A DNA stretch of 64,000 bases from Zarea fungicola. Its lineage: Eukaryota > Ascomycota > Sordariomycetes > Hypocreales > Cordycipitaceae. This document shows, piece by piece, positions 41,650 through 59,483 of this stretch (position 1 is the first letter of the stretch; each line of letters opens with the position of its first letter). Location of the stretch: positions 9,121-73,120 of the forward strand of contig FWCC01000028.1 in assembly GCA_900169235.1 (NCBI GenBank). Direction: 5' to 3'. The position numbers and the translations under genes are program-made. The notes under the pieces are model-generated. The model was not told the DNA's origin. It saw only the letters and a program-made list of their open reading frames with translations, and made no database searches.

Positions 41650-42713
41650 ACTTTGAGGATTGGAACGCATGGCTTGACACAGGTTATTGTAATGCGAGCA
41701 GCTAGTTTTGCTTAAGAATATATGGCGGACCTAAATGCAAAGGAACTGCTGATTGGCTTTGGAGCGCGGTATAAAGAAGTTTACGACGACTTACACGTAC
41801 CCGCTGTCAAGTTACAGAACCCCGCTAGCATTAATGGCGACCCGTAAGTCGGGCTGACCCGTAAGGGGTGGTTAACGCTTAGCGCAAGAGTAAATGAAAT
41901 TAAAACCAACAACAGACAGGCCTGTTGCTTTTATTCGGGCAGACTACTCGGTCAAATGGCAGCCAGCGCCGGCTGGAACCTGCTCGAAACTTGTGACACT
42001 GAGCCTTGTGTCGAGGTGAAGATCCGAATGGAGGCAAAGACGCCAAGCGAAAGGAAAGACAGGCCAAGGAAGAGCATGATAGCCGGTAGCTCGAATCCGA
42101 TTCGTCATCTTGCTGACACCATCACTGAAAAAAAAAACGTCTAACAAAACCATGTCCTAGTTTGTTAATCAAACGCGGGCCTCTGGTGAGCTAATACAGG
42201 GTCGCCGATGCTTCGGATGCTTACCCGAGGAAACGCGAGTCATTCGCCGTCATGCAACACCATGCTCCAAATTACTCCGTCATGTCCAGGGCACAGCTCA
42301 ACTACTCTCTTCATTATTGAAGGCTTCCCAGGTAAGGCCTTTATTAATTGTGCGGGATTGGTTGGTAATTTTCATACCTCCGTGCCGTTCGAGCAATAGC
42401 TATAAATAGCCTATCTCCTTACCACTAAGGTGGCGTTCTGGCTCCTGTTTAGTAACGCAAGGTTTATTGCCTTCATTAGGCTTTCCCCTACTTTCCGTCA
42501 GCAGCCCCTCCTGATTAACTAGCCTCCGCGTCCTCCGCGTTGTTGAAGGGGCTGGCGACGAATCGTTAGCGCTTATGCCACCACCGTTACGTATAACCGT
42601 ACGCTACTATACTGGCGCTCGGCCCGTAAAACTTGCACTGCAAGGGTTTGAAATAAAGATGGTCGCTATCCCAGAATACTGTTCCGTGTCGCGCAACTAT
42701 CCATCACACCACC
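41650..42713. other. Intergenic region
   Basis: About 1.06 kb before the PhyH gene. It holds a small direct repeat (gacccgtaag at about 41838 and 41857). No gene supported. Confidence 0.5.
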
Positions 42714-43678
42714 ATGAGCCAGAAAATCACAGTATCCGTCGACCGCGAGGTTGGTGCCGACAAGCGGGTTTCTCACCGAGCATCCGATGATCCTCGAGTT
42801 AAAAAGCTCATTGAGCATACCATTGAGCATGGCTATGTCATTATTGAAAATGCCTTTACAAAGGCCGAAGTCGAGGAAACCAAGGCCGAGTTGGCTCGTA
42901 TCGCAAGCTCGCCCGAGGCCGGGCCAGCCGCGGCACACGGTCGCAACTCATTCGAAGGACTAAAAACATCACGAATTTACTCACTGCTCAACAAGTCAAA
43001 AGATTTCGAGAAATACGTGATCCACCCGGATATTCTAGCCCTGAATGATTATTTCCTGGATCCTGCCTACCTGCTCAACTCGTACCACAGTGTGAGCATT
43101 CAGCCTGGAGAAGACCCGCAGACAATTCACCAAGACGATGGCAGCATTATCATTGAGCGACCACATCGACCATTTGGGACGGTAAGTGATGGGTTTAGGA
43201 TTTCACCGATTATTTTCTTGTGTTCCAAAACTGTTCTGACCATCTGCAGGCAATTATGGTAGCTCTTGATGAGTACACTGCTACCAATGGGTCAACCGTC
43301 ATTATCCCCAAGTCGCATAATTGGGGCTCGGACCGCCTCCCGAAGCGATCCGAGGCCGAACCCGTCATCATGCCAGCGGGCAGCGTGGTGTTCTTTGTTG
43401 GAACACTATACCATGGAGGTGGCAAGAATACATCCGATACTACGCGCCACGCGCTCACCGTGCAGTATTGCCAGCCTTGGGTGCGACCAGTCGAGAACCA
43501 AATTTTGGCCGTGGACTGGAATAAACTCGGCGATATGCCTCCGCAACTTGTAGACTTGCTCGGTTTCAAAGTTGGAAGACCATTTATCGGGCATGTGGAT
43601 GGAAGAAGTCCTCGCGCTGCCCTTCCGCGACTTGTGAGCAACTTTGCCAAATTTGAGCAATTAGGGTCCAAACTGTGA
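42714..43678 (+). CDS. Phytanoyl-CoA dioxygenase (PhyH) family oxygenase
   Basis: Fe(II)/2-oxoglutarate-dependent oxygenase. Exons 42714-43181 and 43250-43678 (68-bp intron GTAAGT...TGCAG) give 298 residues. Metal ligands are visible as His139 and Asp141 in QTIHQDDGSIII and His211 in GTLYHGGGKNTSDTTRHALT, with Arg222 placed to hold 2-oxoglutarate. The helix GYVIIENAFTKAEVEETKAE at the N-terminus is typical of the family. Fungal relatives include secondary-metabolite tailoring oxygenases as well as catabolic hydroxylases. The intact active site predicts an active enzyme; substrate unknown. It lies between the damaged regulator and a phosphatase gene. Confidence 0.9.
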
Positions 43679-43878
43679 AGCAGCTCTAGAGCTGCAAGGC
43701 ATACATCATTTCTCGTTAGAGACAGCGTTAATGGTCGGCAACGGCCACTCTGGAACATAAGGAATTCACCCCCATCCAGGTTATCATTACTCCTCGTACA
43801 CTACTTTTTTTTATCTTGTATTTTTATTTAGGAATGTTTCAATGCAAGATGCTTGCGCTGCCATGCCAAGCAGTGTTC

Positions 43879-44817
43879 CTAATAAGTGGTGCGATCATCG
43901 CCAATGATGGACCAAAATTCTTCCACAAATTCTCGCTGCCCCGCGGTCGCCGGTCTCACTGCAAGATACCTCCTATTGTCTACTGGAGGGCTCCATTCCC
44001 CCGGATGACCATCTACCATGATTCCACCGGCCTCGACCAAGATGCACCAAGCTGCCGCAACATCCCACGCCCACGAGCCGCACTCCCAGAATGCCTCCTG
44101 CTGACCATTGGCCACTCTGCATATCGTTATTGCGGCTGAACCGGTGCAGCGAAGCGAATTGACAAAGCGGCCCCCAGTGGCTGTTGTCCGTGCTAGTGTT
44201 GTAAAGACCTTGAGATTGAGCTCAAAGTTGGGACCTTCCCTGTCGCTACCCCACTCGATTCCAATACACGCTGGACCTAAGCCTTGCAGAGGGCTTGAGG
44301 TGAGTGGAAGCTTGGCAGGTTCGCTTCCTGCGACTGAAGTGTAGGCGCCATGGCCATGAGCAGCCTTCCAAAGCTCTTGGCGGAAGGGATTGTATACGAC
44401 GCCGACTTTCGGGACCCTGTTTACCACGAGTCCGATCGAAACGCAAACCGCGGGGAAACCGTGGACAAAGTTTGACGTTCCATCGATAGGATCAACTATG
44501 AATGTTGGTTCGTCCGTGATGACGACACCATCATGGTACGTCTCCTCGCCAACAAAGGCGAATGTCGGATACTTGGCACTCAGACGATCCCGGATAAGTC
44601 GTTCAACGGCCTTGTCGGTTTCTGTCACAATGTCCGCAGCTTATTAAGTCAGCATGACTTTATATTTGCCTAACGAGGATGCGCTATTCCTACTATTTTT
44701 CTTCGTTATCGTTGTAATCGACGTGGGTTTTGCATCATGGATAATCTTGCCCGCTTCTTTAGTTACTTCAACCACGTAGCTGCAGATGCTCTCAAGATCA
44801 AGGCTATGGTCGTCCAT
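43879..44817 (-). CDS. Inositol monophosphatase-family phosphatase (QutG-like)
   Basis: Mg2+-dependent sugar/inositol phosphatase. Exons 44817-44694 and 44639-43879 (54-bp intron GTAGGA...ATAAG) give 294 residues. All family signatures are present: TADIVTETDKAVERLI formed at the splice, FAFVGEETYHDG (metal-binding Glu), IVDPIDGTSNFVHGFP (motif D-P-I-D-G-T) and WAWDVAAAWCILVEAGGIMV (motif W-D-x-A-A...E-A-G-G). Fungal members include QutG of quinate gene clusters, so a role linked to a catabolic cluster is possible but unproven. It is convergent with the PhyH gene; only 200 bp separate their ends. Confidence 0.9.
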
Positions 44818-45197
44818 TATGATCACCCAAACTTTGGTATTACTTGGGTGCAAAATGAACAGAAACAAGCAGTAAGAGATTCGTTCACTCATGCATCCTT
44901 TATAAAGCGAAGGGGCAGCTAGTGTCTTCCGAAAGAGGCAATGTTCCACCCACGTGCATTTCAGCCCCAGAACTATTCTGCAGAGTCATTCGGTACCACG
45001 GCCTATTGGCCATTCGGCTCGAGATAAGCCTATTTCGCTAAAAGATAAGAACAACAGTGACATCTAGGTCGCCATCGGCTCGAGATGCAGGTCCCCATCG
45101 CGGAATTGGCTCATGCAGAACATTCCGGCACTTGCAAATCATAATCAAGTCGGTAAGCTTATCAGACATTTTACCAGGATTGAGGCCCATCTAATAG
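44818..45197. other. Divergent intergenic region
   Basis: About 380 bp between the phosphatase and a Zn2Cys6 regulator; likely a shared bidirectional promoter. The word atcggctcgag and the similar attcggctcgag occur near 45011 and 45072. Nothing else seen. Confidence 0.5.
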
Positions 45198-47015
45198 ATG
45201 CTATTGTCCAGATTAGAGATGGCTACCAGTCCAGAGTCGATATCTCCCGAGGCAACCCATCCCGCACCATATCGGGGCCGTGTTAGAAGTGGTTGCTTAA
45301 CATGCCGCAGTAGAAAGGTGAAATGCGACGAGCAGCGACCAATTTGCAACAACTGCTCACGGCTGAAACGTATCTGTGTGTACAAGCCACGTCAGACTCG
45401 GCAGCACAACCACGATTATGTGAATCATGGGAAAAGTCCAGTGTCGCCCGCCTCGTTTGGGTTCAGCGGCGATGCTGTGAGCAGCGGCAAACATTCCGCC
45501 TCGCCGACGCTCCAAACGCCGCTGTCCGAATACCATTTTGAGGTACCTGTCGCGGATGCAGCAAGCCACCCACAAAGTTCAACAGAGCATCAATTGGAAA
45601 GCACGCACAACCCATTCCAGCATCCGGATGAGGCGATAGTGGCTGTGACGTCACGGCTTGAACGAGCCCTACAGCGACAGCGGGTAGGCGCCGCGACCGA
45701 TCACGATGATTTTGACCAAAACTCACCGTCAGTGCTAATTTCGCGAGATATCGAATTAACCACGACTATGGATATTCTTGCTGCTGGCGAAATCTCTTAT
45801 GAGCCTTCATTTTCGTACTTTATTGACAAGGTGGAGCTCCCAGCAATTACTATATACGACAGCGTCAACTGGGCCGAAATGAAATTACGTGTTGTCCAGA
45901 TGGGGTTTTCAAGCCCTGCAGTCGCTATGGCAATAATATCTGTGTCAATGGTCCAAAAGGCACTGCTACACAGCATTCCACTGTCCAAAGCCATGTCCAT
46001 GTATCATTCAGCAAAGAGTGCATTTAATGAGCTTGTGGAGGATGACTCGAAAGACTTTGATACAATACTTGTGGCCGCTTTCCTCTTATGTCTGTTTGAT
46101 CTCATAAACTATGACATGAGTCCGATACTTGCGGCACCAAGCCCCCGGTTGGTGCAGAGATTTGAGAAGTGGTCCTTGTCAGATCCTTCGCATCATTCCT
46201 CGCTGTCGTTGAGAATCATTCTTTGGATGAGGCTATTACGAACCATAGCCTTTCGGGGAGGTGGCAGGGCACTTATATCAGAAGATATCTGCAACTTGTT
46301 TCCTAGTATTCGTGCGAGCGGAGCCAATACATCCTCGTTGGCCAGCCCGAGTGCCGACGCCTCCAGTCACTTGTACGAGATGCTAAGCACTCCACTTTTC
46401 GAGTTTTACCTAGAACTGCAGATCATATCTGGTGACACGGCGAGACTCACCCATTACCACCGGTCAAGGACGAGAGGGGCAGATCAGGAAGAGGTTGCCG
46501 CACACATTGCGCGGATCAAATCACGACTATTGCGACTCTGGGAGGGCAGGCCAGCGACGCTACGACAGAACCCAGAAGACATTCGCTCCAATCTCGCCCC
46601 AAAGGTAGCAGATCCCATCATATCAATGGCGGGTGTCTGCTCAGCCGCATATCATGCCGAGTTTATAGAAATCGGCCGCCTGCTCGGGGACCCGGTCACG
46701 GAGAACACGGATTCGAAGCAGGCCATGCTGCAAGTTCGAAAAATCATACAGGGTGACTGGAATGTGTACCAGGACGGCAAGCTCAATGCGGGCTACCTCA
46801 GGCCCCTGTTTCTCTACGTCATTGAGTGCATGGATCGCGAGGCAAGCCAGTGGGCCGTGGCAAAGCTGCGACAGATTAAAAACATTGTCTGCCGAAGTGA
46901 CTTTTTTGCCACCTTTGGGGAGGAACTGGCCAATGCTGAGCTTCGCAAGGAGAGGAGGGTCACTTCCAAGTATTTCTGCATTTGGTATTTTGGTGTGCCA
47001 CCGCCGTATCTTTAG
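45198..47015 (+). CDS. Zn(II)2Cys6 transcription factor
   Basis: Intronless gene of 605 residues. The DNA-binding cluster is CLTCRSRKVKCDEQRPICNN followed by CSRLKRIC, fitting C-x2-C-x6-C-x6-C-x2-C-x6-C, preceded by the basic RGRVRSG. A Ser/Pro-rich linker follows. The remainder reads as the helical fungal-specific regulatory domain of the type often annotated fungal TF domain 2 (YFIDKVELPAITIYDSVNWA; FDTILVAAFLLCLFDLINYD; DREASQWAVAKLRQIKN). A second in-frame ATG at 45219 fits the family's usual short N-terminus equally well. It lies between the phosphatase gene and a sugar transporter, convergent with the latter, and could regulate either. Confidence 0.9.
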   Translation: MLLSRLEMATSPESISPEATHPAPYRGRVRSGCLTCRSRKVKCDEQRPICNNCSRLKRICVYKPRQTRQHNHDYVNHGKSPVSPASFGFSGDAVSSGKHSASPTLQTPLSEYHFEVPVADAASHPQSSTEHQLESTHNPFQHPDEAIVAVTSRLERALQRQRVGAATDHDDFDQNSPSVLISRDIELTTTMDILAAGEISYEPSFSYFIDKVELPAITIYDSVNWAEMKLRVVQMGFSSPAVAMAIISVSMVQKALLHSIPLSKAMSMYHSAKSAFNELVEDDSKDFDTILVAAFLLCLFDLINYDMSPILAAPSPRLVQRFEKWSLSDPSHHSSLSLRIILWMRLLRTIAFRGGGRALISEDICNLFPSIRASGANTSSLASPSADASSHLYEMLSTPLFEFYLELQIISGDTARLTHYHRSRTRGADQEEVAAHIARIKSRLLRLWEGRPATLRQNPEDIRSNLAPKVADPIISMAGVCSAAYHAEFIEIGRLLGDPVTENTDSKQAMLQVRKIIQGDWNVYQDGKLNAGYLRPLFLYVIECMDREASQWAVAKLRQIKNIVCRSDFFATFGEELANAELRKERRVTSKYFCIWYFGVPPPYL

Positions 47016-47201
47016 CTCACAAACGTTGACAACGTAATTGAAAGTTGATCCCGCATGAAATAGTCAGCAATGAAGAAACGGTACATAGAAACTACATATA
47101 AGAACATCTCTTCTGCGCTGTCTTGAGGCTCCTATTCGCCTTTTTTTCGCCATTGCACGACCAAGTCCCACCGTCGGATTAAACAGCTGTCAACCCATTG
47201 A

Positions 47202-49039
47202 CTATGCGTCCTCAAGCTTACTATTGCCAATCAGTGCCTCTGGCAAGCTGACTGCAGTCGTGGCAAAGTGACGGGCCGAAACTCCAGTCTCAAAGAGAAT
47301 ATCCAGCTCAGCCGTCGTGCGGCCCTTGGGCTCAGGAACGAAAAAGTACGCAAACAAGGCTGACAGGAAGCAGCTGCCGCCCCAGAAGAATCCCGTCTTT
47401 GCACCCCAGTTCCAGGCCGTTGGGTTCAGCTGGTACGGCGTCAGCACGCCCGCAATGATGGTGGTAATGATGTATGTCCATCGGGCGAGGGCAATGGATT
47501 TGCTGCGGAGAATGGAAGACGGGATCTCGGAGCAGAGCGTGTTGGTCAGGGGTCCGATGCTGCAGTTGTACAGGAAGGAAGAGACGATGAGCAGTGAGCC
47601 GATGGCGTACGGGTACGACGGCTTAGAATCCTTGGCCTTGAGAACTCCCAGAATTCCAATGAGGAGCAGTAGCACGCACATTTGGACGAGAGACCAAAAG
47701 TAAATTGCTCGTCGACCAAAAGGCTGCAATAGAACCCACTGTGACGATTGTTAGATTATCTGTGAGGATGCCTGCGGTGCATGCGTTTGTAACTTACTGA
47801 GAAGAAGCCGCCAACGATGGCAACTGCAAAGCCAACAATGGTCAGGTTGAATGCCTGTGTGGTCGGTACACCGGCCTGCTGCAGAAAGTAGGTCGAGTAT
47901 CCACGGAGCGGGTTGCCGTTGAACGTCTGAATAGAGTAGATGCCGAGAACAATCAGGGTGCGGCGAAGATTGACACCCTTGAAACAGGCAATATATGTCG
48001 TCTCACTTTGGATTCGGCGCTCATGCTCAGTTGTTACAACCATCAGATCAACGTTCTTGTCGAGGTCGTAATTGACGTTGCGTGGGGAAACCAGTCGTTC
48101 AAGGACCTGTCTGGCCTCGTCCTTTCGACCAGCACGAACAAGCCACCAGGGAGACTCTGGGGCAAAGAAAATGAGAGGAATCAAAAGTACAGGCCAGAAC
48201 CATCTGTCTATGGTTAGCAAATACGTCTGACTAGTAACAAATATCATGGTGATGCATACTGGATAGCAAAAGGGATTCGATAAGCCCATGGAGCAGGCTG
48301 GCTAAGCATGCCTCGAAGTATACCGGTTGCTATTAGCTGGCCAAATGCCTATTCGCTGTTAGTTCCAACGTCACATCACAAGAGATTCCATCACATACCC
48401 AGCAGAAGTTGACATAGTTGGTAAAGTAGGCACGCAACTTCAAGGGGGCCAGCTCCAGCGCATAGATGACTGTGGTGACTTGGAAGATGGCGAGCGGGAC
48501 ACCTAGAGCTGGTTAGAAGCCAGTATTCTGGAGTGGTTCAACGTGATACGCTGCGTACCGAGCAAAGATTGTCCAACAACAAGAATGGTCAGATTCGGGG
48601 CGAAAAACGTGATGAAAAGAATGGCCGACATGCCGAAAAGCCCTCCGATGATGGTCTTTCTGAAACCCAGTCGCTCGCTGAGATAACCAGCCAACAGCAG
48701 CCCAACAAGCTGTCCGCAGGCTGAGCCGTTGGAGAGACCCGTCTGCCACGGCGCCGAGATTTGGTACGAGTCTGGCTTCTTGACCAAGTGTCCATACTTT
48801 TTCTGGAACACGGGCTGTGCGAACAGGGTGCCGATGAGCTTGGTGTCGTAGCCCTCCATGACGACGGCTGTAGACATGACGAAGCTCCAGAACATGGCCT
48901 TGGGATACATCCGGACGGCCTCGAGCAGGCTCAGGTCATGCTCCTGCTCCGTCGCATCTTGGGCGTTGACGACGGTCTCAATCTCGGCGACAGCGATTGT
49001 GCCGGGCACCGCAGACTTTTCCTCGATTTCGCGACTCAT
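47202..49039 (-). CDS. MFS sugar transporter, maltose/alpha-glucoside type
   Basis: Proton-coupled sugar porter. Exons 49039-48559, 48502-48399, 48348-48260, 48203-47798 and 47738-47202 join in phase to 538 residues. Family hallmarks: VMEGYDTKLIGTLFAQPVFQ in helix 1, GLSNGSACGQLVGLLLAGYL, SERLGFRKTIIGG (the R-x-G-R/K loop), PESPWWLVRAGRKDEAR after helix 6, QTFNGNPLRGYSTYFLQQAG in helix 7 and YFFVPEPKGRTTAELDILFE at the end (the PE-x-K-G-R-T motif). The N-terminal acidic cytosolic leader and these sequences place it with Mal/alpha-glucoside permeases. It is presumably regulated by the convergent Zn2Cys6 gene; this is inference. Confidence 0.92.
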
Positions 49040-49884
49040 TGGCGCTGTTCCCTTTTTGCAGTGACTAGAAGGTACACAGGTCGGCGTGCAAGAGGTGGTA
49101 GTGACTGCTGCTGAGCTTTCTCTCTGATCGTGTAAGTCGTTGTGGACATTGGCATCTTTTATCTAAATCTTTGAAAGGATCCAACGGGAGCGCATGGTCC
49201 AACCCCAGGTTTCGATTGGCTCTTTACCCCAGACAAGCCCTCCTCGTGGTCTTGACCCCATCGTGCGAGCTATTTTGGTAAAAGCAGGCAAGCGTAGCTC
49301 GCGAGGGAACTGACTCGCCGACGCCTATCTGCTACCGACGGGTCTTATCTGTTGCCGATGAGCGTCCAAGTAGTTTCCAGGTTTCGGGTGGGCCACCGAC
49401 GCAACTGGTCGGCATGGCGTCGGCTGGAACACATCTTTTTCAGTTTTTGGTCAAGCCAATGCATTGGGGGCCACGATATTTTGTCTGGCATGGGTCGGCT
49501 GGTTGGGAACAAGCCGCGAAATCGAGGCGAAAATTGGTGGCTTGGTGACAGATGGAGAATTCAAATCAACCTCATTTCTGTATCGGCAGTTACAAAAACT
49601 CGTGCCGGCAGTTACAAGAGGCATTGAAGTCACGACCACAACATAGTTGTTTATACTGGTAGTCATAGGCCATTGCGCCGTCGCTTACACAACCGACATC
49701 AAGGTGTCTGGCCGACAACATTACACTGCACGATTCGAAATCCACACGGTTGCATTAAAATCGCTTACCAGTTAATTTTCATAAATTAATTGGAGGCCTA
49801 ATTTTAGTCTCTACTGATCTACCGTCTCTCGACTATACGCAACGTACAGAGAGGGCCTTGTTTCCTCTCGTCTACCCTGGGCAG
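49040..49884. other. Intergenic region
   Basis: About 850 bp; upstream region of the sugar transporter and 3' flank of the 2H phosphoesterase. No gene supported. Confidence 0.5.
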
Positions 49885-54263: not shown

Positions 54264-56039
54264 TTATTTTGGACTTGAGCCATGCAGCCTCTTTACCCGC
54301 CAGTTTCCAGATGTTTGCGCCGAGATGTGCTCCACGCCTGTCCTTGGTTTTAAATCGCCGACTAAATGAAAAGACCAAGTCCATTTGTTGCCCTCAAACA
54401 CTCTAAAAATATCCATAGTAGCAGATGATTGTCCCCGACTTCTCCAAGCCCGTTCCAAAATATTCAAAATTTCCCGATTTGCGCCAAAGCTTGAAAACGG
54501 TCCCATTCCATCCAGAAGCCGCCTAAAGTGCTGCTCCTCCTGCTCGGTATTGGCCATGCACCCGGCCATGCACAGTGGCCAGACGGGGCACCGGCGGCCA
54601 AGCTGTCCGGAGATGATGTCGGCGACGACAAGCACGCCGCTAAGACTGACCCTAACAATCATTCGTTGTGGTTGCCATCCGTGTATGACGGTTGACAGGT
54701 ATATCCAAGCAGCGTGAAGCCACATTTTGGTCACAAGTCGATGGTGCTCTTCCTGGTCCGCCGGGCTCTGCAGCTGAGGCGGCTCAGTGACGGGCCCGAG
54801 ACTTTCTAATCCTTCAAAAATTGCATTCTGTAATTCTTGGCCACGCATGGCAAGGTATTCCTCTGACGCATCAAGACTGTGTAGCGTCGCAATTTGTCCA
54901 ACAAGCGCAAGTGCCCAGCCATGACATCCAACGTAATCCTGCATGGGCAAGAATGCTTCGTCTCGGGGCAGTGCGCTACCAACCGCCCGTGGTGCTAATA
55001 TCGTGTGATACTTTTGTAGTGTTGGACTTTGCTTAAGTGACGTACTCAAAATTATGTCTGCGTATAGGAACACAGCTAGTGAAAACTGAAACGAAGTCTG
55101 ACTGGCATTGCGCAGCCTGGCGACAACGCCAGTAGTATCAAAAGTTGGAGGCTTTTCCAGCGCCAAAAGCATATTCTCCAGTGAGATATTCTTTCCATCC
55201 ACGCACCCGTACGCCTGCAGGGTTTCCTTGAGCAGGGCGGAACCGGCCTCCCAATAGCTGTAGACATTCTGCCCATCGGCAATGGAGGCCTCGGCGACCA
55301 AGACATGCGCAATAGTATCCAAGATGGAGGCAATCTGCGTGAATTTCAGGCTCGTCGTCGGTGCAGCATGCAGATTAATGCCATGGCGAAGACTTTTCTG
55401 AATCATTTGCAACGATTGATTCCTGTGCTTGGCGACTGTGTCCCAGACGTGCTGCTCGCAAGGCGTTTGAACAGTTTCTGGCGCGTCTCTTGCTAGCACA
55501 AGCGTAAAGTAATACCCGCTGGCCGTTATCGCGGCGTGACGGAAGCCCTCGTTCGCCTCCAACGTGGAAAGAATCCAACTGCGACCACCTGAAAGCGTAG
55601 AAGGGCAATACCAGGGGAAGAGCGCTGGAAATACCGTCTCCCAGTACAGGGCCGTCAAAAACGTTGCAGTCTCAGCTGCTTCCGATGACGAATGTGTCGG
55701 ATTCGGCTCCTTGGATTGAGCAGAACTGCTTGTCACTGTTTGCTCATTGTTTATTGTCGTCTCAATCGATCCTGGTGGTGGTTGGTTCGGTGGTGTGGCA
55801 ACTTGGAAAGCGTGAACGGCGAAGCCCTTGGATGAGCTAGCTGTACTCGCACGGCGCTGTTTAATGATGGCTGCAAGCTTTCTAGCCTTCTCAGACTGCT
55901 TCTTGCCGCCGTCCATCCATTCTGGGCGCGCGGTACTGTATTCGCAGGAAATTTGTAGCCTGGAACAGTCTGCGCAGACTGGTCTTGCACGGTCGCATTT
56001 CTTCCTCCGCAAGCGGCAAGTCCAACAAGCCGCCATCAT
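54264..56039 (-). CDS. Zn(II)2Cys6 transcription factor
   Basis: Intronless gene of 591 residues. The zinc cluster is at the extreme N-terminus: CWTCRLRRKKCDRARPVCAD then CSRLQISC, fitting C-x2-C-x6-C-x6-C-x2-C-x6-C. A basic linker follows (GGKKQSEKARKLAAIIKQRR), then a Ser/Pro/Gln-rich region. The C-terminal 430 residues resemble the fungal-specific TF domain 2 family (ATFLTALYWETVFPALFPWY; EGFRHAAITASGYYFTLVLA; VTKMWLHAAWIYLSTVIHGW). It lies on the same strand and immediately downstream of the ArnB-like aminotransferase gene, with 630 bp between them, so it is a candidate regulator of the ArnB/ArnA pair. That link is inference from position. Confidence 0.9.
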   Translation of the reverse strand: MMAACWTCRLRRKKCDRARPVCADCSRLQISCEYSTARPEWMDGGKKQSEKARKLAAIIKQRRASTASSSKGFAVHAFQVATPPNQPPPGSIETTINNEQTVTSSSAQSKEPNPTHSSSEAAETATFLTALYWETVFPALFPWYCPSTLSGGRSWILSTLEANEGFRHAAITASGYYFTLVLARDAPETVQTPCEQHVWDTVAKHRNQSLQMIQKSLRHGINLHAAPTTSLKFTQIASILDTIAHVLVAEASIADGQNVYSYWEAGSALLKETLQAYGCVDGKNISLENMLLALEKPPTFDTTGVVARLRNASQTSFQFSLAVFLYADIILSTSLKQSPTLQKYHTILAPRAVGSALPRDEAFLPMQDYVGCHGWALALVGQIATLHSLDASEEYLAMRGQELQNAIFEGLESLGPVTEPPQLQSPADQEEHHRLVTKMWLHAAWIYLSTVIHGWQPQRMIVRVSLSGVLVVADIISGQLGRRCPVWPLCMAGCMANTEQEEQHFRRLLDGMGPFSSFGANREILNILERAWRSRGQSSATMDIFRVFEGNKWTWSFHLVGDLKPRTGVEHISAQTSGNWRVKRLHGSSPK

Positions 56040-56667: not shown

Positions 56668-57816
56668 CTAAGAACCAAAATGAGACTCGAAAACGCGCTC
56701 AATGGCATTCACTACTCTTTTCACATCATCTTCTTCCATGGCTGGAAAGAGTGGCAAGGTAACGATTGCCTTTCCAGTCTGTTCTGCCACAGGTAGCATG
56801 CCCTCTTTAAACCCCAAGTCCCGGTATAACTGGAAGAGATGAATCGCTGGGTAATGGCATCCTGTGCCAATCTGGAATCGCGTTTTCATGGCCTCCTGAA
56901 AAGAAGCTCTCGGCAAGCCAGGGGGCAGAATCAATTGAAAGAGGTGCCAGTTTGGCTCAAAATCCTCTGTATTATCCAATGGCAAAACGGTGCCGTGCCA
57001 GCGCCTCTCAAGATCCACACCAAACGCCGCGAAATACATCGTCGCCAGCTGTCTGCGTTTGGCGCCGATGGATTCTAGTCTGGAGAGCTCACAGAGCCCA
57101 ATTGCTGCGGCCACGTCTGTCATGTTGTGTTTACCTCCAAGGATATCCACGTCCATTTCGTACCCGATCCGCGTCACGCCCTGCAGGCGAATCTTTTCCG
57201 CCAGCGTCGCTTCGCTATCATCGTTTAGAACAATGCACCCGCCTTCGCCACCTGTTGTGATGTTTTTGGTGGCTTGAAAGCTAAAAGATACAATGTCACC
57301 AAAGGAACCTATGCGCTTTCCTTTCCATTTCGAGCCAAGAGCCTGTGCTGCATCCTCTACCACACGCAGGTGGTGTCGTCTCGCCAATTCATAGAGCTGA
57401 TCCATGTCGACAGGCCTTCCCGCCAGATGGACGGGTAAAATCGCCTTTGTTCTTTCTGTAATGGCCTGCTCTACCAGATCAAGGTTCATGTTTCTCGTGC
57501 GCGGATCAATATCAACAAAGACGGGAGTCGCCCCCACAGAGAGAATAACATTGGAGGTTGCGACCCATGAAAGTGGCGTGGTGATGACTTCACTTCCTTC
57601 CCCGACTCCAGCCACACGCAATGCCACTTCTAGACTGGCCGTCCCTGAACTAAATGTTCGCGTTGGTCTGCCACCAAAGTATTCTGACAGGGCGTCTTCA
57701 AATTCGGTTACTTTGGGGCCGTTGGTCAGCCACCCCGAGCGCAGGACGGCAGTGGCGGCTTCGATTGCTTCCTCCGATAGCTCTGGCTTGCAGAATGGTA
57801 GATGCCCCTCAATCAT
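56668..57816 (-). CDS. DegT/ArnB-like PLP sugar aminotransferase
   Basis: Intronless, 382 residues, the length of bacterial ArnB (UDP-4-amino-4-deoxy-L-arabinose synthase). Expected reaction: glutamate-dependent amination of a UDP-4-keto sugar, with PLP. Visible signatures: LPFCKPELSEEAIEAATAVL and LRSGWLTNGPKVTEFE at the start, FSSGTASLEVALRVAG (phosphate-binding), TPLSWVATSNVILSVGATPV, VVEDAAQALGS (Asp155 to the pyridine nitrogen, Gln158), and FSFQATKNITTGGEGG, with Lys184 as the PLP Schiff-base lysine. The C-terminal substrate loop is ETGCHYPAIHLF-like (GTGCHYPAIHLFQLYRDLGF). It is divergent from the formyltransferase at 58512 over a 695-bp spacer. The bacterial style and lack of introns suggest horizontal transfer. 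It could act on another UDP- or dTDP-4-keto sugar; the specificity call is by resemblance. Confidence 0.9.
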   Translation of the reverse strand: MIEGHLPFCKPELSEEAIEAATAVLRSGWLTNGPKVTEFEDALSEYFGGRPTRTFSSGTASLEVALRVAGVGEGSEVITTPLSWVATSNVILSVGATPVFVDIDPRTRNMNLDLVEQAITERTKAILPVHLAGRPVDMDQLYELARRHHLRVVEDAAQALGSKWKGKRIGSFGDIVSFSFQATKNITTGGEGGCIVLNDDSEATLAEKIRLQGVTRIGYEMDVDILGGKHNMTDVAAAIGLCELSRLESIGAKRRQLATMYFAAFGVDLERRWHGTVLPLDNTEDFEPNWHLFQLILPPGLPRASFQEAMKTRFQIGTGCHYPAIHLFQLYRDLGFKEGMLPVAEQTGKAIVTLPLFPAMEEDDVKRVVNAIERVFESHFGS

Positions 57817-58511
57817 TGTGCAGAGAATAAATAGATAAGCGAAAGAAAGAGAACGGGAACAAATGAGAGAACCTCTGAAATCTCCTGTCCGTGTCCAATC
57901 TGCTTCAACTTGAGCGGAGTCTCATATTGCTTCCAGGCCAGTCGCTCTGAAATGGCAGGATGTGGGCGAGGGCCGACGTATCGCTAAATCCCAACTAATG
58001 CCGACTTTCTCCGTAAATGAGATATTTCGTTTTTAGATTGCCAGGGTATTCAATATTAAACAATCGAGGTCTAATCAAACAGTTCAAAGTCCGGAGGCCA
58101 GAAAAACGATAAAATGCCTGAATCCTTCGACTTGGACGGCAAGGGAATAGAGATGGAGAAATGAGCTCACATAAACTGAGTTTTAGAAATACTTCACGAA
58201 TAAAGAATTGAGTAGTACTGCAATATATATTCCGTCACGTGTCGTATTTCCTTTTGCCGTCATCTGGCATGCATTAGTGTCGCCGCTTGCTGCAAACTCG
58301 GCATTGCGCTTGCGCCACCTCAGTCTGCCAATTCGCCAGATTCAAGCTAAAGAGGCTTTGAAGCTCGAGCTGAATATGCAATGCTACCATTATCATGCTT
58401 GTGGACCCGCCCACAAAATTGCTTTGCTTAATCAATCCTCCATATACCTGGATACACCAACGCAGCCTGCCTGTGACAGACCTAAACCTGTCAGGCATCC
58501 ATTATTTCACA
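57817..58511. promoter_or_regulatory. Divergent promoter region of the ArnB/ArnA-like pair
   Basis: A 695-bp spacer separates two divergent start codons (57816 and 58512), so one bidirectional promoter could coordinate both genes. An ATG at 58395 is in frame with the formyltransferase and would extend it by 39 residues. That extension has no counterpart in bacterial enzymes, so it is probably leader. No specific operator was identified. Confidence 0.5.
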
Positions 58512-59483
58512 ATGGCAGAACATCCACGTTCTGCCGTCGTATTTGCATATCATAATGTCGGAGTTTCATGTCTCAAAATCCTCTTAGCAAGTGAAGTCCA
58601 GGTGCCGCTTGTGGTGACGCATGCGGATGACGCTTCTGAGAACATATGGTTCGCGTCCGTCGCCGACGTGTGCAAAGAGCACAATATTCCATGTATAACG
58701 CCAGAGGGCCCCAAATCGCCCGACCTCGCGCAGCGCTTACAAGCCATCAAGCCATCTTACATCTTCAGCTTCTACTACCGCTTCATGCTCCCGCATGCCA
58801 TCCTCGAGCAGGCCCGCATGGGCGCGTACAACATGCACGGATCCCTGCTGCCCAAGTATCGCGGCAGAGTTCCTGTGAACTGGGCTATCCTCCATGGCGA
58901 GACAGAGACGGGCGTTACGCTACACGAAATGGTGGCCAACCCGGACGCCGGCCCCATCATTGCGCAGACAACGGTGCCCATCTTGCCAGATGAGACGGCA
59001 TTTGACGTATTTGGCAAGTTGACTGCGGCTGCGGAAAAGACCCTCAGCGAGGTTTTGCCGCGAATGCTGCGCGGGGAGGTGCAAGTTGTGCCCAATGATA
59101 TCGCCAAGGGGAGCTACTTTGGTCGTCGACGACCAGAGGATGGGCAGATTGACTGGTCGCAGCCTGCGCAGAGCGTTTACAACCTGCATCGGGCTGTCGC
59201 GCCACCGTACCCAGGGGCATGGACTCTTGTCAATGGCCACAGGTTTGTGCTGGGCAAAGCAAGAATGTCAGATGTGACACTGGACTCCGCGGAGAGAGGG
59301 CTCACTGTCATTGATGGCACGATATTTGGCGTCTGCGGTGACGGGCAATGTCTTGCGATCCACGAGCTATTACAAGGTGACATTACCGTTGCGCCTCAAC
59401 ATCTACAGAAGTTCTTGTCTTCCCAGAAAGAGAGTAGTGAGAAACAAGAGCGTACCTCGACAGCGGTATTGAACACCCGCTGA
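58512..59483 (+). CDS. ArnA-type UDP-amino-sugar formyltransferase
   Basis: Intronless, 323 residues, about the size of the N-terminal formyltransferase domain of bacterial ArnA. Expected reaction: 10-formyl-tetrahydrofolate-dependent N-formylation of UDP-4-amino-4-deoxy-L-arabinose. The N-terminus AVVFAYHNVGVSCLKILLAS matches the ArnA style. The formyltransferase catalytic triad is present: Asn107 and His109 in AYNMHGSLLPKYRGRVPVNW and Asp145 in HEMVANPDAGPIIAQ. The segment FSFYYRFMLP and the C-terminal subdomain with YFGRRRPEDGQIDWSQPAQS and RAVAPPYPGAWTLV also fit. The C-terminal dehydrogenase/decarboxylase domain of bifunctional ArnA is absent and not encoded nearby. The start at 58512 is chosen because it aligns with bacterial enzymes. 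Alternative: a formyltransferase for another nucleotide-4-amino sugar. Confidence 0.9.
   Translation: MAEHPRSAVVFAYHNVGVSCLKILLASEVQVPLVVTHADDASENIWFASVADVCKEHNIPCITPEGPKSPDLAQRLQAIKPSYIFSFYYRFMLPHAILEQARMGAYNMHGSLLPKYRGRVPVNWAILHGETETGVTLHEMVANPDAGPIIAQTTVPILPDETAFDVFGKLTAAAEKTLSEVLPRMLRGEVQVVPNDIAKGSYFGRRRPEDGQIDWSQPAQSVYNLHRAVAPPYPGAWTLVNGHRFVLGKARMSDVTLDSAERGLTVIDGTIFGVCGDGQCLAIHELLQGDITVAPQHLQKFLSSQKESSEKQERTSTAVLNTR

Follow-up and report, generated by a model that had tools for sequence, protein, structure and literature searches.

A putative bacterial-derived pathway to a 4-amino/4-formamido-arabinose nucleotide sugar in fungi of the Hypocreales

In E. coli, ArnA and ArnB serve the formation of UDP-L-Ara4N for lipid A modification and polymyxin resistance, and ArnA is one fused protein. 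The arn operon of Burkholderiales is a version with split ArnA, consisting of ArnT, ArnB, ArnC, a formyltransferase (PRK06988), U4kpxs (PRK11908) and ArnD. Fungi have no lipid A, and to our knowledge a 4-amino- or 4-formamido-arabinose nucleotide sugar is known only from bacteria. The fungus described here has the same three enzyme families as the Burkholderiales operon (55-66% identity, same position in trees), but only three of the six genes, on two contigs and in no operon, with a divergent pair, no detected ArnD or ArnT, weak matches to ArnC and a eukaryotic host. It shares the proposed reactions and the catalytic residues with E. coli ArnA and ArnB, but has separate genes where E. coli has one fused protein. 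By description rather than by sequence, the predicted route also resembles the CalS9/AtmS9 routes of bacterial metabolites, in which a UDP-glucuronate decarboxylase makes a 4-keto-pentose that then undergoes PLP-dependent transamination; unlike the fungal route, these have no formyltransferase step named in the passages of PMC10338323 that describe them. We put at about even the chance that fungi of the Hypocreales produce a 4-amino/4-formamido-arabinose nucleotide sugar by a bacterial pathway acquired once, in which an ArnA-like fusion arose independently and later came apart in one lineage, and that the sugar is destined for a fungal glycan or secreted metabolite rather than lipid A.

The window (the whole stretch of 64,000 nucleotides that was analysed) contains an aminotransferase gene and a formyltransferase gene in divergent orientation (Table 1); their intronless structure, their intact active-site residues and the Zn2Cys6 regulator gene beside them are as the preliminary description had them. 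From its first ATG the formyltransferase open reading frame spans 58395-59483, and its start was placed at an inner ATG because the aligned bacterial homologues begin near there. The contig that carries the pair is 155,956 bp long, in an assembly of 43.1 Mb and 456 contigs, and the pair is surrounded, as far as its neighbours are recognised, by genes usual in fungi (those of a PI4-kinase, a sugar transporter, a MARVEL protein and a ferric reductase). A Pfam scan of 21 open frames of the window, small exons being outside its scope, found no glycosyltransferase, decarboxylase or deacetylase.

Table 1. Positions of the gene pair and adjoining features in the window
Feature	Position	Strand	Details
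Aminotransferase, predicted ArnB-like UDP-4-keto-pentose type (DegT/DnrJ/EryC1/StrS family)	56668..57816	-	382 aa, intronless; PLP lysine K184, D155
Formyltransferase, predicted ArnA-type UDP-4-amino-4-deoxy-L-arabinose	58512..59483	+	323 aa, intronless; N107/H109/D145
Intergenic region of the divergent pair, probable shared promoter region (from position and composition)	57817..58511		695 bp, GC 0.447
Zn2Cys6 transcription factor adjoining the pair	54264..56039	-	PF00172 37.1 bits, PF11951 131.1 bits

The aminotransferase belongs to the DegT/DnrJ/EryC1/StrS family, with a full-length match to PF01041 (369.6 bits, profile positions 3-359 of 360) and a PLP lysine that is kept in all 78 rows of the alignment. 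Its closest solved relative is 4lc3, entitled 'putative UDP-Ara4N aminotransferase' (469 bits), and among the matches listed it is 92% identical to a Zarea fungicola protein, 65-67% to F. graminearum proteins and up to 67% to bacterial proteins. The ArnB equivalog model (NCBIfam PRK11658, cut-off 631) is missed by this protein (296.7 bits) and by the enzymes of two Burkholderiales operons, L012 and L016 (312.6 and 330.0 bits), and E. coli ArnB (739.5 bits) is the only enzyme above the cut-off among those tested; because the operon enzymes miss it too, the label given here is ArnB-like of the betaproteobacterial type, not ArnB equivalog. Only two of the 78 rows, this protein and that of Zarea, have one glycine more behind the PLP lysine (KNITTGGEGG), a spacing also found in E. 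coli WecE.

The formyltransferase, composed of PF00551 and PF02911, passes the model of stand-alone ArnA-type formyltransferases (NCBIfam PRK06988, cut-off 316) with 443.2 bits; the model accepts the L012 enzyme (503.6 bits) and also E. coli ArnA (331.2 bits), and the best matches in the PDB are ArnA chains. Its residues N107, H109 and D145 align with N102, H104 and D140 of E. coli ArnA, which we take to be catalytic, and are present in 58 of 59 rows. It is the only strong match of its kind in the genome (next, 24.4 bits). An AlphaFold model of this protein from a 15-row alignment had a mean pLDDT of 71, with residues 109-146 below 50, and was too poor for use.

The preliminary description had found no arn partners for the pair. 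This stands for ArnD and ArnT, which have no match in the genome at E 1e-3 by a search that intron-split genes could escape (the same queries matched in three of three bacterial genomes searched), while ArnC has weak matches of 26-30% over parts, its query being outside that control; the complete bacterial arn system for lipid A Ara4N is thus not found in this genome. For the decarboxylase it holds in the window frames, but a decarboxylase gene is located on a different contig of the same fungal genome (C208:132174-133331; 183 kb). The encoded protein carries an N-terminal leader of about 50 residues, shares 61% identity with the corresponding protein of the bacterial operon and passes the equivalog model with 502.7 bits, the same model accepting E. 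coli ArnA with 504. Its catalytic residues are kept: T432, S433, E434, Y463 and K467 are present in 62 of 62 rows, the C208 protein included, and R619 in 61, the remaining row having a gap. The neighbours of the gene (on one side a carbonic-anhydrase-like gene, on the other an unassigned frame and then a sulfatase) give no clue to the pathway. The formyltransferase and decarboxylase being two genes here, the bifunctional ArnA model (PRK08125, cut-off 777) is not matched, and tblastn with four fused proteins found no trace of a decarboxylase in the window plus 10 kb beyond it, nor of a formyltransferase in 30 kb of C208. The intergenic region of the pair and the region upstream of the decarboxylase have 35 8-mers in common versus 17 expected (none of 200 approximate shuffles as high), nine 9-mers versus 4.6 expected (16 of 200 shuffles as high) and no 10-mers, which is only a weak hint of a common promoter motif. 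The genome also contains a UDP-glucose dehydrogenase gene (C168) with all three Pfam domains; with this and the C208 decarboxylase, the predicted gene set covers the whole route that leads from UDP-glucose to UDP-4-formamido-4-deoxy-L-arabinose.

The bacterial relatives are encoded by neighbouring genes. Among the best 80 of at least 586 related loci, the aminotransferase, an ArnC-type glycosyltransferase (GT) and the formyltransferase are on one strand in all 80, the decarboxylase adjoins the formyltransferase in all 76 that have both, and the full order ArnT, aminotransferase (AT), GT, formyltransferase (FT), decarboxylase (DH), ArnD is found in 72. For the first trees, 40 of the 80 loci were taken (36 of the 40 for DH), and E. 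coli was the sole outgroup. The second trees added enterobacterial plasmid copies and class-mates, and left out P0253, a degenerate row with an end branch of 5.3, plus eight near-copies for FT; P0258, P0284, P0250 and ten near-copies for DH; and P0127, P0135 and ten near-copies for AT. The named fungal rows besides our own were P0251 and P0254 for FT; P0245, P0246, P0251, P0252 and P0254 for DH; and P0124, P0126, P0132, P0137 and P0203 for AT; P0125, P0127, P0135, P0146, P0247, P0248, P0249, P0253 and P0260 were counted as fungal by their place in the trees. Because P0258 and P0146 lie inside the fungal clade without a fungal label in two of the first-tree tables, two changes are reported there.

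Each tree has a single fungal clade (support 100/99 for FT, 100/100 for DH, 100/100 for AT) that joins Oxalobacteraceae-type rows (100/99, 100/98 and 99/96, respectively), so that all three enzymes group with Burkholderiales and most closely with those rows. A grouping of the fungi with E. coli ArnA was not excluded in the first trees (AU p 0.47 for FT, 0.34 for DH), but in the second trees a grouping with the enterobacterial copies was rejected for FT (AU p 0.0002), DH (0.005) and AT (0.0002), and with it, by the FT and DH values, descent of the fungal fusion from enterobacterial ArnA; a position of the fungi just outside all sampled Burkholderiales was not rejected in the three trees (p 0.09, 0.25, 0.44). 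Horizontal transfer of bacterial genes into the fungus, as proposed for the pair in the preliminary description, is near certain, and both genes of the pair fall in one part of the bacterial tree. It is also probable that the genes encode the bacterial UDP-L-Ara4FN route and that a hypocrealean ancestor gained them, with an arn operon of Burkholderiales (Oxalobacteraceae-like) as candidate donor.

The named relatives come from four families of Hypocreales and form one clade, by which the acquisition looks old. Among the matches listed, in lists of 120, F. graminearum is the only named relative in which all three activities are predicted; Zarea has the aminotransferase and the decarboxylase (each 92% identical to ours) with no formyltransferase, Lecanicillium saksenae the decarboxylase alone, and Aphanocladium and Hirsutella the aminotransferase alone. 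The expectation that other fungi would keep the same gene pair finds no support in these matches, which include no named stand-alone fungal formyltransferase. A formyltransferase-decarboxylase fusion as in E. coli ArnA occurs in F. graminearum (P0251, with both ArnA halves in one protein) and in Cladobotryum; with PRK08125, the fused P0251 scores 700.5 bits and P0254 and P0260 score 683.9 and 724.6, all below the cut-off that E. coli ArnA exceeds (1259.7 bits). Another fusion of the fungal clade, P0253, has lost all three formyltransferase residues (N, H, D), and the clade has several stand-alone decarboxylases, which suggests that formylation may be dispensable.

In the proposed pathway, with activities, substrates and product as predicted from the sequences, the fungal UDP-glucose dehydrogenase would supply UDP-glucuronate, the C208 enzyme would convert it by ArnA-type oxidative decarboxylation to UDP-4-keto-pentose and some UDP-xylose, the aminotransferase would form UDP-L-Ara4N, and the formyltransferase would use 10-formyl-THF to form UDP-L-Ara4FN. 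The amination and formylation of a nucleotide sugar attributed earlier to the pair agree with this predicted chemistry, but a two-step stub does not, since the decarboxylase completes the predicted route from UDP-glucuronate. With ArnD and ArnT not found and ArnC only weakly matched, the sugar is probably placed on a glycan or secreted metabolite by a fungal glycosyltransferase. Fusion of the formyltransferase and decarboxylase would have happened in fungi or on the way to them, as an event apart from the enterobacterial one, and the simplest account of the two genes seen here is that the Cordycipitaceae-like lineage of the source fungus split them once more.

Two other uses of these enzymes have to be weighed. 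The aminotransferase and formyltransferase may have been re-purposed for another 4-keto sugar, such as UDP-4-keto-6-deoxyglucose from the NDP-glucose 4,6-dehydratase of the fungus, to make a UDP-4-formamido-4,6-dideoxyhexose, with the C208 decarboxylase serving otherwise. The DegT family accepts many 4-keto sugars, the aminotransferase (P0001) scores 294 bits with the PseC model as well, the pair and the decarboxylase are unlinked, and a 4,6-dehydratase-like gene exists in two pieces (C105:203785-204820; 175.3 and 107 bits, both below the bacterial-model cut-off of 365.1). We nevertheless consider this unlikely, as all three enzymes trace back to one region of the bacterial tree and to neighbour genes of one operon, two of them are one polypeptide in Fusarium and Cladobotryum, and the formyltransferase is far from the model of dTDP-4-amino-4,6-dideoxyglucose formyltransferase (38.5 of 238 bits). 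The decarboxylase might alternatively be kept as a UDP-xylose synthase, the pair being a relic in the course of loss: a Ralstonia enzyme of this kind makes UDP-xylose as well as UDP-4-keto-pentose, as cited in PMC3220709 and PMC5607165; the fungal clade has decarboxylase-only proteins and, in P0253, a dead-looking formyltransferase half; and after the C208 gene the next genome match to a bacterial decarboxylase query has only 24 bits. The open reading frames of the pair are open, however, the residues checked in both enzymes are intact and the aminotransferase is conserved in Zarea equally with the decarboxylase, all of which makes a relic quite improbable.

The remaining explanations concern the origin of the genes, and contamination and a vertically inherited fungal family had been named beforehand as findings that would overturn the claim of transfer. 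Bacterial contamination or a chimeric assembly would account for genes that are bacterial-type and intronless, and their GC3 (0.54-0.62), which fits seven fungal frames (0.50-0.77) yet overlaps the bacterial copies (0.56-0.81), does not discriminate; but fungal genes lie on both sides, on contigs of 156 kb and 183 kb, and the proteins fall in their own fungal clade, with a best bacterial identity of at most 68% among the matches listed against 92% in Zarea, so that contamination is refuted for practical purposes. It is just as improbable that these are ordinary vertically inherited enzymes, with the formyltransferase a mitochondrial methionyl-tRNA formyltransferase (Fmt) and the aminotransferase one of the common PLP enzymes. 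Fmt and numerous PLP enzymes do occur in fungi, but the formyltransferase falls below the Fmt cut-off (146.5 of 201.5 bits) while exceeding that of PRK06988 (443 of 316), it groups with Burkholderiales in trees of bacterial and fungal-clade rows, and P0001 (369.4 bits) is the sole DegT match of nearly full length that the genome has, the next one scoring 37.3 bits.

No description of a fungal ArnA/ArnB-type pathway was found among the papers listed by searches of open-access literature, subscription journals being mostly outside it, and two articles that survey genes transferred to fungi (PMC11708051, PMC11898892) have no occurrence of the terms looked up in their main text, though supplementary tables could list these genes. 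The genes are a clear case of the entry of several neighbouring bacterial genes into fungi, with active sites kept across four families, and of a gene fusion that matches enterobacterial ArnA yet is separate in origin, with later fission probable. If the enzymes work as implied, a eukaryote makes a sugar that Gram-negative bacteria use against polymyxins and cationic peptides, which raises the question of whether a cationic or formylated pentose is present on a fungal glycan or metabolite, perhaps facing bacteria, insects or other fungi. The data suggest that one group of fungi has adopted a sugar pathway from bacteria and turned it to a purpose of its own.

Open reading frame coordinates place the aminotransferase (P0001) and the formyltransferase (P0002) where the preliminary description had located them, and the catalytic residues that it reported are intact, namely D155 and K184 in the active site of P0001 (residue check) and N107, H109 and D145 in P0002 (alignment). 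The start of P0002 was set at the inner ATG rather than at the opening of its frame because aligned bacterial homologues begin near the former. The nearest relative of P0002 in the PDB is ArnA. For P0001 a structure-sequence search gave 4lc3 as the nearest solved structure (469 bits; deposited as a putative UDP-Ara4N aminotransferase), with ArnB 1mdo at 239 bits. By model score P0001 falls below the strict ArnB cut-off, as do the two betaproteobacterial operon aminotransferases tested. A single additional glycine follows the PLP lysine K184 of P0001 (KNITTGGEGG); it is found otherwise only in Zarea (2 of 78 rows), and E. coli WecE has this same spacing after its PLP lysine. Elsewhere in the window, at 42657-49162, genes for a PhyH dioxygenase, an inositol-phosphatase-family protein, a Zn2Cys6 regulator and a sugar transporter adjoin; these may form a small catabolic cluster with no relation to the arn-type genes.

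Location of the arn-type genes and of a further dehydrogenase in the genome that holds the window
Feature	Location	Strand	Description
P0001, aminotransferase	window 56668-57816	minus	full-length DegT/DnrJ/EryC1/StrS aminotransferase
P0002, formyltransferase	window 58512-59483	plus	N- and C-terminal domains; ORF opens at 58395
Decarboxylase gene	C208:132174-133331		counted from first ATG; contig of 183,107 bases
L100, nucleotide-sugar dehydrogenase	C391:144452-144790 and flanks		UDPG_MGDP_dh type

The decarboxylase, which had not been seen, is indeed missing from the window frames scanned but is present in the genome. A search of all 43.1 Mb (456 contigs, the window being C357:9121-73120) with the ArnA model located a 389-codon open frame, matched at C208:132177-133190 (ArnA positions 314-648; 418.9 bits). 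Over 331 residues the encoded protein shares 61% identity with its counterpart in the Noviherbaspirillum autotrophicum operon; with that bacterial decarboxylase as query the next-best match in the fungal genome scores 24 bits. Alignment shows that it keeps T432, S433, E434, Y463, K467 and R619 of E. coli ArnA, which also passes the equivalog model that the C208 protein passes. Its neighbours are a carbonic-anhydrase-like gene to one side and, to the other, an unassigned frame followed by a sulfatase. Window positions 57817-58511 and the 700 bases upstream of the decarboxylase have 35 common 8-mers (17 expected) and no common 10-mer, an excess that hints weakly at common regulation or reflects composition only. 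Contig C168 carries a gene for UDP-glucose dehydrogenase in which all three Pfam domains are present, and L100 is a second, distinct enzyme. The reported absence of the other partners stands for ArnD and ArnT, bacterial queries for which had no match in a six-frame search of the fungal genome and matched in all three bacterial genomes searched as a positive control; an intron-rich homologue could escape such a search because frames are read exon by exon. The ArnC query gave just two partial matches (26-30% identity), which would fit dolichol-phosphate-type transferases. No glycosyltransferase was recognised in the 21 window frames scanned.

Trees of formyltransferase, decarboxylase and aminotransferase (59, 62 and 68 rows) with an E. 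coli outgroup grouped the fungal rows together in each case, with one protein lacking a fungal label inside the fungal clade of the decarboxylase tree (P0258) and one in that of the aminotransferase tree (P0146). Second trees were better rooted by the addition of enterobacterial ArnA and ArnB copies, a Cupriavidus copy and class-mates. There the fungi form one clade of formyltransferases (57 rows; 100/99) and one of decarboxylases (61 rows; 100/100), each joined to Oxalobacteraceae-type rows (100/99 and 100/98), and one of aminotransferases (66 rows; 100/100) joined to Oxalobacteraceae and Nitrosomonadales/Gallionellaceae-type rows (99/96); among the bacterial rows that join them, two carry the title Burkholderiaceae (Paucimonas, L019, and a MAG, L014). 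Thus both members of the pair, for which horizontal acquisition had been proposed, group with one part of the bacterial tree. Joining of the fungi to enterobacterial sequences was rejected (AU p 0.0002 for formyltransferase, 0.005 for decarboxylase, 0.0002 for aminotransferase), and a position just outside all sampled Burkholderiales is compatible with the data (AU p 0.09, 0.25 and 0.44). The donor was a member of Burkholderiales or a close ally, most likely one similar to Oxalobacteraceae.

A scan of GTDB species genomes, from which the best 80 of 586 relatives were kept, gave 79 loci labelled as Burkholderiales taxa and one labelled just "Proteobacteria bacterium". In every one of these best 80 loci the formyltransferase shares its strand with the aminotransferase and an ArnC-type glycosyltransferase; the decarboxylase adjoins the formyltransferase in all 76 loci having both, and the order ArnT, aminotransferase, glycosyltransferase, formyltransferase, decarboxylase, ArnD occurs in 72. 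Fungal identities to the same kept loci are 56.5-66.3% for formyltransferase (80/80), 55.1-63.2% for aminotransferase (80/80) and 55.1-61.7% for decarboxylase (76/80), which together with the linkage makes the three fungal enzymes counterparts of three genes of one bacterial operon. Of 143 genomes drawn from the bacterial class, 19 hold a match to the Fusarium fusion at E 1e-50, and five of these show both halves. Three of seven stretches examined (L132, L133 and L134, in genomes G132, G076 and G068) have the aminotransferase, ArnC-type glycosyltransferase and decarboxylase together, with ArnT also in L133 and L134, and no formyltransferase or ArnD frame matched within 10 kb; these may be arn-like clusters that do without a formylation step.

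Fungal aminotransferases related to P0001 were found in Zarea fungicola (92% identity), Aphanocladium album (73%), Fusarium graminearum (65-67%), F. culmorum (66%) and Hirsutella minnesotensis (62%), and decarboxylases in Zarea (92%), Lecanicillium saksenae (78%), F. graminearum and Cladobotryum mycophilum (both fused to formyltransferase) and F. pseudograminearum (a 378-aa model that starts inside the formyltransferase end). The named relatives span Cordycipitaceae, Nectriaceae, Hypocreaceae and Ophiocordycipitaceae plus one genus of uncertain placement; because this distribution was read from lists of the best 120 matches, absence from it is weak evidence. Among the best 120 formyltransferase matches listed, no stand-alone protein comes from a named fungus, so the pair in the window has been seen in one named species so far.

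Both halves are present in P0251 of F. graminearum (662 aa) and P0254 of C. mycophilum (656 aa). Because the fungi do not group with enterobacterial ArnA in the trees, their fusion is separate from the enterobacterial one. The six split fungal decarboxylases form one clade (98/96) in the second tree, and a single group of the remaining fungal rows (the fusions together with P0252 and P0258, which have the decarboxylase only) was rejected (p 0.017). The simplest reading is that one fungal fusion was later split in the lineage of the window's fungus, although more than one fusion may have occurred within fungi; P0260 is the deepest fusion row. Neither the window formyltransferase locus nor the C208 decarboxylase locus showed a remnant of the missing half. 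A bacterial-looking fusion, P0318 (665 aa), groups with a Duganella protein (98/93) apart from the fungi; it may be one more fusion of the ArnA kind that arose independently, or two neighbouring genes run together by a sequencing error. The enzyme families and their chemistry are already known, and P0254 is named "Bifunctional polymyxin resistance protein ArnA" by its source; no description of a eukaryotic set, a separate fusion or a later split was found in the open-access literature searched.

In the proposed route UDP-Glc would be converted to UDP-GlcA, UDP-GlcA to UDP-4-keto-pentose, the 4-keto-pentose to UDP-L-Ara4N, and UDP-L-Ara4N to UDP-L-Ara4FN, steps predicted from the enzyme families, the conserved catalytic residues and the shared origin of the genes in a single operon. 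Against it weigh the ArnB score and the additional glycine of P0001, and the formyltransferase triad lost from P0253 together with decarboxylases that stand alone in several cases. Another 4-keto sugar is a possible substrate, as a 4,6-dehydratase-like gene is present in the fungal genome. Release of the 4-keto-pentose and of some UDP-xylose is reported for decarboxylases of the ArnA type (PMC5607165), and the 4-keto-pentose is transaminated in bacterial metabolite pathways too (PMC10338323). The formyltransferase half of P0253, a fused ArnA-like protein of 659 aa, has lost the Asn, His and Asp, and its decarboxylase half keeps the catalytic residues. Given this loss and the several stand-alone decarboxylases, the route may end at UDP-Ara4N or UDP-xylose in some fungi.
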